64,000 nt of DNA from Bacteroidia bacterium (GTDB lineage: Bacteria > Bacteroidota > Bacteroidia > B-17B0 > Aurantibacillaceae): the NCBI GenBank assembly GCA_014378485.1, contig JACMNO010000061.1, positions 124,001 through 188,000 of the forward strand, in the 5' to 3' direction. Numbering within the stretch: position 1 is the first letter of the stretch; each line of letters opens with the position of its first letter. The notes beneath the pieces were generated by a model, which was not told the DNA's origin, did no database searches, and saw nothing but the letters and a program-made list of their open reading frames with translations. Both the position numbers and the translations under genes were made by a program. This document shows positions 41,477 through 45,628 of this stretch, piece by piece.

Positions 41477-44400
41477 TTAATAATTTAATGAAGACCCCAA
41501 CCACTTTTCAATACTGGTTACTTCCATTTGTTTTCGTTTGGCATAATCTTCAATCTGTTCTTTATTGATTTTTCCAATACCAAAATAATGTGATTGAGGG
41601 TGTGCAAAATATAAACCACTAACTGCAGCCGTTGGAAACATTGCCAGACTCTCCGTTAAAATAATTCCTGTGTTTTTCTCAACATCCAATAATTTCCAGA
41701 TGGTGTTTTTTTCTGTATGATCTGGTTGTGCAGGATAGCCAGGTGCGGGACGTATTCCGGCATATTCTTCTTTAATCAAATCTTCATTTTTCAGGTCTTC
41801 GTTTTTAGCATAACTCCATAATTCTTTACGTACTTTCTTGTGCATTAATTCCGCAAATGCTTCCGCTAAACGATCTGCAAGAGCCTTTAGCATGATGGCA
41901 CTGTAATCATCATGATCAGCTTCAAAGCGTGCCACGTGTTCATCTATTCCAAAGCCTGTTGTTAATGCAAAAGAACCTATGTAGTCGGTAGACCTCACCC
42001 CCGACCCCTCTCCAAAGGAGATGGGAGAGTTTAGAACACTTGTTATAGTTTGAATAACATTATCTAAGTTATTTTCAACTTCATCATTAGTAAAACGTAA
42101 TACATCAAATCCTAAACTATTTAATTCAGCAGTTCTATTTTCGTCTTTTTCTTTTTGGTTTAAATGAATTAATCCGTCAACTTCTATTATTAACCTCTTT
42201 TCGATGCAAACGAAATCAGGTATAAAATGTTTGATAGGATGTTGCCTTCTGAATTTAAAATTATGTTTTCTATTCCGTAATTCTTCCCATAATGTACTTT
42301 CAGCGTTCGTAGGATTTTTTCGGTTTTCTTTCGCGTAATCTATTGTATTGCTCCAATCTTTTTCGGAACTTAAATAATAATTGGGAGCAGATGATAACCG
42401 ACCAGAGTTATAACCAGTTCCCCTCTCCTTTGGAGAGGGGCTAGGGGTGAGGTCTTTTGGTTTTACAAAATCACTCAGGGCTACATTATACTGTCCTGCC
42501 GGTTTTCTACTTTGTTGGCGAATTGAATAAAAAGTAGCTATTGTATTTCCTTTTTCATCATATACTTCTGTATCATCTTCATTTACTGTATTGGCAGGAT
42601 ATATACCAATTACTGCTTTTGCGGTTAACCATTTTTCAGAAATGATTTTTGCCAGCATGTCTTGTGCTTCATTAAATAATTTGATGGCTTCAGCTCCGCG
42701 ATTAGGGTCTTTTAAAATTTTAGGATAAGAACCTTTCATTTCCCATGAGATAAAAAATGGTGTCCAGTCAATGTATTCTGAAATTTCTTTTAAATCGTAA
42801 TTATCAAATACTTTATTGCCTATAAAAGAGGGTTTTGTAATTTCTGTTTTATTCCAATCGATAGGAAATTTATTGAGACGCGCTTCTGCCATCGAAATTA
42901 ATTTATTTTGCGATTGTGCATTTTTATTTTGTTCACGCACACGCTCATAATCTTTATTTACATCAGCCACAAAGGCATCGCGTAATTCATTTGAAATTAA
43001 ACTGCTGGCCACAGGAACAGATTTGCTGGCATCATTAACATGCACCACGGCACCCGAATAATGTTGTGCAATTTTTACTGCCGTATGTACCTTAGAGGTT
43101 GTTGCCCCACCGATCAATAATGGAATTTTAAATTTAAGTCGTTCCATTTCTTTGGCTACATGCACCATTTCATCTAATGAGGGAGTAATTAATCCACTTA
43201 AACCAATAATATCCACATTGTGTTTTTTAGCTTCTTCTAAAATTTTATCACAGCTAACCATTACACCTATGTCAATTATTTCGTAGTTATTACAGGCTAA
43301 AACAACGCCAACAATATTTTTTCCAATATCATGCACGTCCCCTTTAACTGTAGCCATCAATATTTTACCTGCGTTCGTCCTACCGTCACCAACAATACCG
43401 GCTTTTGCATTATCTTCTTTTTCTTTTAAAAGGTAGGGCTCCAAGTACGCAACAGCTTTTTTCATCACTCGGGCACTTTTTACAACCTGTGGTAAAAACA
43501 TTTTGCCTTGTCCAAATAAATCTCCAACCACGTTCATCCCGTCCATTAAAGGCCCTTCAATCACGTGTAACGGCCTGCCTAATTTTAATCTTGCTTCTTC
43601 TGTATCTACGTCTATGTGTTCCACTAAACCTTTTACCAGAGCATAACTTAAACGTTCTTCTACCGTTCCTTTTCTCCAGGCTTCATCTTTTTCAGTTTTT
43701 TCTTTGGTAATACCTTTTAAAGATTCAGCATGATCTACTAATCGTTCGGTTGCGTCATCTCTTCTATTTAATAACACATCTTCTACTAATTCGAGTAATG
43801 TTTTATCAATATCATCGTAAATCACTAATTGCGATGGATTCACAATTCCCATATCCATACCGTTTTTAATAGCATGGTATAAAAAAGCGCTGTGAATGGC
43901 TTCACGAACATGATCATTTCCTCTGAAAGAAAAAGAAACATTACTCACACCACCACTTATTTTAGCATGTGGTAAATTATCCTTAATCCATTTTGTTGAA
44001 TTGAAAAAATCCAGTGCGTTCAATCGGTGTTCATCCATTCCTGTTGCTACAGGAAAAATATTAGGATCAAAAATAATATCCTGTGCTGGAAATTTTACTT
44101 TATCCACTAAAACGTCATACGCTCTTTTACAAATTTCTTTGCGTCGTTCAAATGTATCAGCCTGGCCAACTTCGTCAAAAGCCATAACAATCACTGCGGC
44201 GCCGTATTGTTTTATTTTTTTGGCTTGCTCAATGAATTTTTCTTCCCCTTCTTTTAATGAAATAGAGTTTACAATGGCTTTTCCCTGCACACATTTTAAC
44301 CCTGCTTCTATTACTGTCCATTTGGATGAATCGATCATGATTGGCACACGGCAAATATCCGGCTCCGATGCAATTAAATTTAAGAAAGTGGTCATAGCTT

Positions 44401-45628
44401 GTTCACTATCCAGCATCCCTTCATCCATGTTCACATCAATAACCTGGGCTCCACCATCTACCTGATCTTTGGCAATAGATAATGCTTCTTCAAAATTTCC
44501 TTCCTTAATTAATCTTAGAAATTTTTTTGATCCTGTTACATTTGTGCGCTCACCTACATTTAAGAAATTACTCTCAGGAGTAAGCGTATAGGGCTCTAAA
44601 CCGCTCAAATGCATTAATGTATCAGGCTGTGGCTTTTTACGAGGTTTCGCATCTTTTGCAATTTCCGCAATGCGTTTAATGTGCGCCGGTGTTGTTCCGC
44701 AACATCCGCCAACAATATTTAAAAAACCTGCTTTTAAAAAATCTTCAATCTGGTGACCCATTTCATGAGCATCTTGATCATATTCACCAAACTGATTTGG
44801 TAAACCGGCATTTGGATATGCACTTACATAAAAGGGCGCTTTGTTTGAAAGCTCTTCCAAATAAGGACGCATATCTTTTGCACCTAAAGCACAATTAAGA
44901 CCAACGCTTAACAGATCCACATGAGAAACTGAATTTAAAAACGCTTCGGTTGTTTGTCCTGATAAAGTTCTTCCGCTAGCATCGGTTATAGTTCCTGAAA
45001 CCATGATCGGCATTTTTTTATCTATTTTTTCACAATAGTTTTGAATTGCAAATAAAGCCGCCTTTGCATTCAGGGTATCAAAAATTGTTTCAATCAATAA
45101 AAGGTCTGCACCGCCATCAATTAATCCGCGAACCTGCTCGGTATACGCATTTACTAATTCATCAAAGGTAATAGCTCTATAACCCGGATCGTTAACGTTT
45201 GGCGATAATGATAAGGTTCGGTTGGTTGGCCCGATTGCTCCGGCCACAAATTTTGGTATAGAGGCAAATTCAGGAAATTCCGTTTTAAATTCGGTAATGG
45301 CTTGCTTCGCAATTTTAGCTGATTCAAAATTCAGTTCATAAACAAATTCCTGCAAGTCGTAATCGGCCATGGCAATGGTTGTATCACTGAATGTGTTTGT
45401 TTCAATAATATCAGCACCTGCTTTTAAATATTCCTTATGAATGGTTTTTATAATCTGTGGCTGAGTAATAGAAAGCAAATCATTATTGCCCTGAAGGTCT
45501 TTATGCCAGTCAGCAAAACGTTTTCCTCTGAAATCTTTTTCAGTCAATTTGTATTGCTGGATCATTGAGCCCATAGCACCATCGATCACTAAAACTCTTT
45601 TTTCTAATTCCTGTTGTATTGTATTCAT
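41477..45628 (-). CDS. metH: Cobalamin-dependent methionine synthase with in-frame DUF559 insert
   Basis: 1383 residues. In order: homocysteine domain with zinc ligands Cys246, Cys309, Cys310; pterin-binding domain (about 350-620, [14 protein letters not shown]); B12 domain with DVHDIGKN (His766 as lower ligand); AdoMet-reactivation domain from about 900. Residues about 1059-1213 are foreign: a DUF559 endonuclease-like domain flanked by [11 protein letters not shown] and [13 protein letters not shown], encoded by the element at 41991-42454. Without it the protein would be 1228 residues, against 1227 in E. coli. The break lies between FVKPK and DYIGSFA, a loop leading into the reactivation core ([12 protein letters not shown] follows intact). 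Expression is governed by the SAM-I riboswitch at 45720-45885. Whether the hybrid is active is unknown; all known active-site residues remain. Confidence 0.95.
41991..42025 (+). repeat. Terminal inverted repeat of the DUF559 cassette, metH 3' side
   Basis: 35 bp beginning GACCTCACCCCCGACCCC; it matches the reverse complement of 42420-42454 at 31 of 35 positions. Its inner 21 bp form a hairpin with a three-base centre and one mismatch. In the metH frame it encodes [13 protein letters not shown]. Confidence 0.92.
42420..42454 (+). repeat. Terminal inverted repeat of the DUF559 cassette, metH 5' side
   Basis: 35 bp ending GGGGCTAGGGGTGAGGTC. The first 21 bp are a perfect 9-bp hairpin (CCCCTCTCC-TTT-GGAGAGGGG). 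In the metH frame it encodes [12 protein letters not shown], a peptide that from memory recurs in many Bacteroidota protein predictions, consistent with a widespread repeat. Confidence 0.92.

Follow-up and report, generated by a model that had tools for sequence, protein, structure and literature searches.

A candidate selfish DUF559 nuclease element with palindromic ends, embedded in frame in methionine synthase and other conserved enzymes of Bacteroidota

Nested within the cobalamin-dependent methionine synthase gene (metH) of a Bacteroidia bacterium from the Aurantibacillaceae, and continuous with its reading frame, lies a compact element in which two palindromic ends enclose a DUF559 nuclease domain. 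In our assessment this insert is probably (roughly 60%) one copy of a mobile family whose members persist as unspliced, translated domains of their host proteins and spread, in all probability, in a homing-like fashion. The composition of the element, its in-frame embedding in many genes, the occurrence of empty sites, the purifying selection on the nuclease and the distribution of one related nuclease set over many genes all emerge directly from the computations presented below. The window analysed here is a 64,000-nt stretch (assembly GCA_014378485.1, contig JACMNO010000061.1, positions 124,001-188,000) of a draft genome in 117 contigs that is 89% complete.

The nuclease-bearing insert in metH

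The metH frame runs from 45628 to 41477 on the minus strand and stays free of stops over 1383 residues, insert included, as the original prediction of an in-frame element had it; NCBIfam still assigns the whole insert-bearing protein to methionine synthase. The features of the locus are as follows:

41477..45628, minus strand: metH, cobalamin-dependent methionine synthase, 1383 aa with insert (ORF, Pfam, NCBIfam)
41990..42455, minus strand: whole element (DUF559 domain flanked by a palindromic end on either side), reading in frame with metH (repeats, Pfam, relatives' alignments)
42419..42455, no strand: 5' end on the gene strand, inverted-repeat arm with hairpin, 12-residue reading (repeat search)
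42344..42418, minus strand: rest of the linker from the 5' end to the nuclease domain (structure models)
42032..42343, minus strand: DUF559 nuclease domain, predicted PD-(D/E)XK/Vsr-like (Pfam, profile search, fold comparison)
42215..42217, minus strand: Asp1138 codon (invariant in 35 aligned inserts)
42182..42184, minus strand: Glu1149 codon (invariant in 35 aligned inserts)
42176..42178, minus strand: Asp1151 codon (invariant in 35 aligned inserts)
41990..42026, no strand: 3' end on the gene strand, inverted-repeat arm with hairpin, 12-residue reading (repeat search)

The two ends are inverted repeats (41990-42026 and 42419-42455) that are 89% complementary and spaced by 392 nt, and each arm holds a hairpin of the CCCCTCTCC-NNN-GGAGAGGGG type, with a mismatch in one arm; the hairpin-bearing repeats had been foreseen, with the arm length corrected here from 35 to 37 nt. 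The 5' arm is stop-free in four of the six frames. Between the arms, Pfam recognizes the anticipated DUF559 domain (PF04480) at residues 1096-1199 of MetH (E 3.6e-35; 120.6 bits against a gathering score of 20.6), the sole other match in the insert being a below-cut-off one to the restriction-enzyme-like domain MTES_1575. By the same Pfam search no transposase, HUH tyrosine enzymes included, lies between the palindromes, again as predicted. The Met_synt_B12 activation domain is split by DUF559, its best stretch (profile positions 119-273) following the insert. A structure model of the MetH C-terminal region, of moderate confidence (pLDDT 68, pTM 0.56) and used for linker disorder only, predicts the nuclease as a separate domain with stretches on both sides of it, including the outer part of the linker from the 5' end to the nuclease, below pLDDT 50. 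Elsewhere on the window's own contig we observe a decayed DUF559 fragment with a stop (L002, G000:C22:10029-10163).

The host enzyme appears to tolerate this arrangement. The window's draft genome contains one metH match only, and a MetE-type methionine synthase (PF01717) is not found in it, with the proviso that a gene may be missed at 89% completeness; the same search is positive in 10 of 14 control genomes. Since no second methionine synthase is found in the draft, the simplest reading is that MetH works with the insert in place. The leucyl-tRNA synthetase (LeuRS) of a genome from the same genus (L151, G001:C294) carries two DUF559 inserts at two sites and is that genome's sole LeuRS match among those listed (down to E ~1e-18), from which we infer that it, too, works with its inserts. 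As a separate observation, MetH matches in several genomes of the class (e.g., G040, G044-G048, G050, G052, G055, G057) are split into two separate ORFs near residue 331-339, as if the gene had been divided.

A family of embedded DUF559 domains

At the order level, DUF559 is detected at E 0.001 in 58 of 87 genomes (the window's own included), many of the domains lying in frames of about 1100-1400 aa, and at the class level 142 of 395 genomes hold a PF04480 match at E 1e-25 or better. Among the 150 strongest class-level matches listed, 81 fall in ORFs of at least 300 aa and 67 in ORFs of at least 700 aa. After 60 more long-frame loci had been added and seven overlapping loci dropped, the working set comprised 119 domains, 107 of them embedded (sharing the frame with 150 aa or more of other sequence) and 12 standalone, with the standalone L063 and L152 being one gene counted twice; the set was picked for long frames, so that 107 of 119 is no frequency estimate and the unselected figure remains the 81 of 150 matches listed. 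A second collection of 80 loci, all from Bacteroidota, contains 66 embedded cases and overlaps the first, its query having been built from embedded inserts and seven of the 66 nuclease cores being identical to members of the 107. The predicted class of in-frame, nuclease-bearing elements is thus borne out by both the 81 of 150 and the 66 of 80. Carriers include the cultured Cellulophaga baltica DSM 24729, Gillisia mitskevichiae DSM 19839 and Flavobacterium difficile KDG-16.

Sequence rules assign 94 of the 107 embedded domains to 16 host-site labels, with host identities taken from Pfam or NCBIfam on representatives:

LeuRS: 47 in total, 33 at site A and 14 at site B
MetH: 15 in total, 9 at site A and 6 at site B
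AcsA: 7
IleRS: 4, one of them (L112) at a different point
Urocanase: 3
RecJ: 3
SpoIIE-type phosphatases: 3
RecG: 3+1
Methylmalonyl-CoA-mutase fusion: 2+1
MutS: 2
HisF: 2, with DUF559 as an N-terminal addition, not internal
TsaD: 1

A pseudouridine synthase likewise bears DUF559 as an N-terminal addition and not as an internal insert. Among 42 standalone domains, none is covered by another frame of at least 250 aa, a count that genes broken by the element could escape. The notion that embedded copies have lost their start codon was set aside as not demonstrable, a Met being present near the domain start in 53 of 107 embedded against 9 of 12 standalone rows. Searches with DUF559 return two weak hits in phages and 36 plasmid records, all below 60% identity. 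Three plasmid loci were examined: those of Azospirillum and Deinococcus have no clear pair of ends, and that of Synechocystis sp. B12 (L388) is a DUF559 gene with a 3' hairpin and palindrome-like end peptides, a hint that the palindrome-flanked domain may reach beyond Bacteroidota.

The nuclease itself is conserved. An alignment of 35 inserts has 16 invariant columns, including an Asp, a Glu-x-Asp and a His, and the three residues singled out in the original prediction (Asp1138, Glu1149, Asp1151) are among them; these are of the kind expected in an active site, and we infer a catalytic role for them. In the 19 of 25 same-site pairs that have a finite insert dS, the insert dN/dS amounts to 0.025-0.161, the other six being saturated, and the nuclease is under purifying selection; the host flanks of the same pairs are constrained too. 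Synonymous divergence of the insert is lower than that of its host in 15 of the 25 pairs, higher in nine and uninformative in one. With insert dS lower in only 15 of the 24 informative pairs, we no longer hold that the inserts are, as a rule, younger than the host genes, and lateral copying between species is, for the same reason, not general.

Fold comparison with the insert model (pLDDT 79) points to a PD-(D/E)XK/Vsr-like nuclease. The model matches the DUF559 protein 3HRL (profile E 2.4e-32, TM 0.86 by target) and the catalytic domain of the homing endonuclease I-Bth0305I (3R3P, named 'mobile intron protein' in the PDB; profile E 1.1e-6, TM 0.74-0.75 by target), and Vsr (1CW0) aligns at TM 0.53 by target and E 0.039. 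The sole PADLOC match is a weak one to the 'homing endonuclease' model (HEase, E 7.5e-6). A homing-endonuclease-like domain in frame beside conserved housekeeping motifs would also suit a non-canonical intein; however, Pfam finds no intein domain on the metH insert or on the family representatives, H[NQ][CST] occurs within 45 aa after DUF559 in only one of the 107 embedded domains, and the junction linkers vary in sequence. We consider an intein very improbable, in agreement with the predicted lack of intein motifs.

Empty sites, movement and palindromic ends

metH is present in all 60 genomes searched, the window's own (G000) included, and the alignment passes in one piece through the insert in only four of them (G000, G017, G033, G056). 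Among 19 same-genus genomes, G017 alone carries the insert at the window's metH site; G010 has DUF559 at another metH site, the G001 metH is spread over two contigs and its allele is not readable, and 16 have metH without either insert. Outside the genus, G033 and G056 carry DUF559 at the window's site. The empty metH site that a comparison with relatives was expected to reveal is thus found, and far from all relatives hold the insert at the same place. Across relatives the MetH loop is about seven residues when shortest and otherwise consists of other sequence, in several cases with unrelated short repeats. Because most close relatives are empty and the loop is variable, the DUF559 insert, judged by these alignments, is not a stable MetH domain. 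Empty alleles are known for both LeuRS sites and both MetH sites, so that two features of homing elements coincide here, namely homology to a known homing endonuclease and occupied and empty alleles at one site. The loop varies between occupied and empty alleles and no common target sequence is apparent; since the loop itself differs among relatives, no target-site duplication is readable.

The occurrence of an insert in G017 at the same site, and of others in many genes and genomes, isolates included, renders an assembly or binning artefact exceedingly improbable, even for a 117-contig draft. Domestication, in which the nuclease would benefit the host (e.g., in defence or repair) and be retained by selection, could account for the low dN/dS and for same-site retention in related species; nevertheless, the patchy distribution with most close relatives empty, the many unrelated hosts and a sole PADLOC match that is weak and points to a homing endonuclease model make it improbable.

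The phylogeny of the 107 embedded domains is instead consistent with a mobile family. The host-site labels of the 94 assigned rows require 25 changes on the tree, against a possible minimum of 15 and against 52 or more in 200 label shuffles, which means that relatives mostly occupy a common site and that others have moved between genes or refilled the same site. The main embedded groups do not include the standalone rows, alongside which a few inserts and some terminal fusions are also placed. In one genome (G043) we observe dozens of SpoIIE-type phosphatase matches. Two of its SpoIIE paralogues, only 20-44% identical in amino acids beyond the conserved motif, both carry a DUF559 insert, and the two inserts are 85-100% identical in DNA per 20-codon bin, with the likeness fading after the 3' hairpin; one insert copy appears to be divided between contigs C24 and C59, a familiar fate of repeats. 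The same genome has further paralogues that are empty (e.g., L338, L342), carry one hairpin (L331, L346) or carry a double hairpin without the nuclease (L336, L341). The near-identity would most simply reflect recent copying and could also stem from gene conversion that acted later on two old inserts. Around inserts that share a site, co-conversion tracts are not clearly seen. Together with purifying selection and homology to a homing endonuclease, the near-identical paralogue copies lend indirect support to the earlier suggestion that the nuclease aids its own spread.

Palindromic ends recur across the family. Under a strict rule (a 7-bp perfect, GC-rich stem), hairpins flank embedded DUF559 domains at the 5' side in 68, at the 3' side in 59 and at both in 42 of 107 cases, leaving 39 and 48 without a strict hairpin at the respective sides, as compared with 1 of 212 control windows further out at the same loci. 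Stem sequences vary and pairing is kept. Of the 42 two-hairpin elements, 20 have matching stems (shuffled mean 6.5) and 17 have loops that are reverse complements (shuffled mean 6.6); because no shuffle out of 2000 gave either figure, both ends are parts of a single element. Of 127 hairpin-centred windows of 41 nt, 21 lack stops in every one of the six frames, versus 3 of 214 random windows. Among 42 standalone DUF559 domains, for which the windows and loops allowed were slightly wider, hairpins are present at the 5' side in 24, at the 3' side in 29 and at both in 19 cases.

Paired ends raise the question of whether the insert is removed from the RNA or skipped in translation, be it by looping out, ribosome bypass or some unknown splicing route. 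Indeed, the ends of the metH insert RNA are predicted to pair into a long stem (z -5.6; as stable in 0 of 100 shuffles). Against this, the embedded cases keep the frame and contain no stops, which bypassing would not necessitate, exact matches between the two ends reach at least 15 nt in only 22 and 20 nt in only 8 of 107 elements, and positions 41480-43000 give no Rfam intron match, only one sub-threshold, unrelated one, matching the prediction that an intron signature is lacking. We regard removal at either level as decidedly improbable, and retention of the translated domain as the preferred reading.

The same palindromes also occur alone. In the window's own genome the metH palindrome is found once between genes and once, with three mismatches, in frame in the valyl-tRNA synthetase gene (L006, G000:C79:37513-37533; peptide LTPALSEGEGSEQ; NCBIfam valS), directly before an editing-domain motif, comparable to LeuRS site A. 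The core palindrome pattern occurs in 25 of the 87 order genomes. Of 42 solo copies at 40 loci from these genomes, 10 lie inside a long ORF, which extends 150 nt or more to either side in five of them (L214, inside uvrA, being one), and the remainder are mostly between genes, often close to gene ends. Not counting three genomes whose only pattern matches are their own inserts, solo palindromes are present in 14 of the 27 genomes that have embedded DUF559 versus 8 of the 60 that do not (Fisher p 0.0003, kinship uncorrected). As a side observation, unrelated short repeats (GTCACTTCGAGC..., CGTCACCCTGAAC...) sit in frame in the MetH site A loop (L013, L015, L055) and at LeuRS site A (L225, L228, L232, L234), and look, by eye only, like CGTC-tagged REPs.

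Such findings bear on a passive alternative, in which a RAYT or other transposase moves a REP/MITE-like element in trans, with DUF559 carried along as a passenger, and survival is limited to in-frame insertions into tolerant loops. The solo palindromes within and between genes fit this scheme, as does the presence of other repeat families in the same MetH and LeuRS loops, for recurrence at a site can reflect tolerance. Furthermore, Y1-type transposases are encoded in 57 of the 87 order genomes, the window's own among them, and solo palindromes are commoner with Y1 (19 of 57 genomes) than without (3 of 30; p 0.02, kinship uncorrected). Nevertheless, DUF559-type hairpins are near none of the best 30 loci of a longer Y1 list, 21 of which have other hairpins, and the link of solo palindromes with embedded DUF559 persists in Y1-positive genomes (13 of 21 with versus 6 of 36 without; p 0.001, kinship uncorrected), the corresponding figures in Y1-negative genomes being 1 of 6 versus 2 of 24 (p 0.5, not significant). 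The nuclease is moreover conserved by purifying selection, and the palindromes flank standalone DUF559 genes as well. Passive transport is therefore a possible but unlikely account, and we favour spread by the element's own nuclease.

Proposed life cycle and relation to known systems

We propose that the element is a DUF559 nuclease gene framed by a pair of REP-like palindromic ends, and that a large Bacteroidota branch of the family sits in frame in loops beside conserved motifs of housekeeping proteins. The element would be translated as part of the host protein rather than spliced out, its palindromes doubling as stop-poor Pro/Ser/Gly linkers, such that the host enzyme could keep working with a tethered extra domain. 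The nuclease would cut the empty conserved site, and repair would copy the element into the cut; nuclease-less ends could spread or persist as short in-frame palindromes, and the hairpins would serve as linkers and perhaps as nuclease substrates. On the fuller picture we are evenly divided, namely that this is a selfish element acting like a non-splicing intein, with a homing-type nuclease and palindromic ends as protein linkers, which invades conserved housekeeping-enzyme loops across Bacteroidota, is kept as a translated domain and sheds nuclease-less palindromes as a DUF559-driven counterpart of the REP/RAYT system.

Several known systems share parts of this design. The palindromic elements of Rickettsia and intragenic REPs are in-frame palindromic repeats, also found as dimers, with tRNA synthetase and repair genes among their hosts, and Rickettsia proteins with an N-terminal RPE-1 are stated to be expressed (PMC3733652). 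The likeness to them that had been pointed out is apt as far as it goes, in that short palindromic repeats lie in frame in genes and host types are shared; however, those repeats span tens of residues (up to 82), with no nuclease mentioned in section 15 of that source (PMC3733652), whereas the two palindromes of a DUF559 element enclose a conserved enzyme, and such elements are found repeatedly at the same sites. In REPtrons, a RAYT (an HUH tyrosine transposase) is flanked by REPs (PMC3733652), and the combination of a palindrome-flanked enzyme gene with solo palindromes elsewhere in the genome is common to both systems. The enzyme here is instead a predicted PD-(D/E)XK/Vsr-like nuclease embedded in coding frames, and the REPtron trait of the element's own palindromes beside RAYT genes is absent from the best 30 Y1 loci.

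Among homing endonucleases, the EDxHD family member I-Bth0305I is a long protein of several domains whose target spans nearly 60 bp (PMC3943268); the insert shares its fold and sequence homology, but the metH copy has the catalytic domain only and no intron. Inteins with homing endonucleases are similarly in frame, mobile-looking and placed in conserved genes near conserved motifs (PMC3943268), yet in DUF559 elements no splicing domain or motif is found and the linkers remain in frame. Standalone DUF559 proteins such as 3HRL have the same domain, and standalone genes in the class often have flanking hairpins too; they differ in being their own genes rather than part of a host frame. When a homing nuclease occupies a conserved gene, it usually does so as part of a self-splicing intron or an intein, and the host is thereby spared (PMC3943268). 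Our literature search, which most subscription journals lay beyond, found no description of a nuclease element kept unspliced in a protein, and in-frame insertion is not a topic in the titles and abstract openings of the DUF559 papers covered. What appears to be new, as far as this search can tell, is the combination, namely a nuclease element retained within the host protein, each part alone being already known.

The culturable isolates that carry these elements make the ideas testable. If true, the proposal would offer some REP-like repeats a candidate driver besides RAYT, and the occupied loops would document, in nature, the places at which large enzymes tolerate an inserted domain. It would further mean that such elements settle where a tethered domain is tolerated, with their own palindromic ends as linkers, a lifestyle in essential genes that would be new for a parasite gene.
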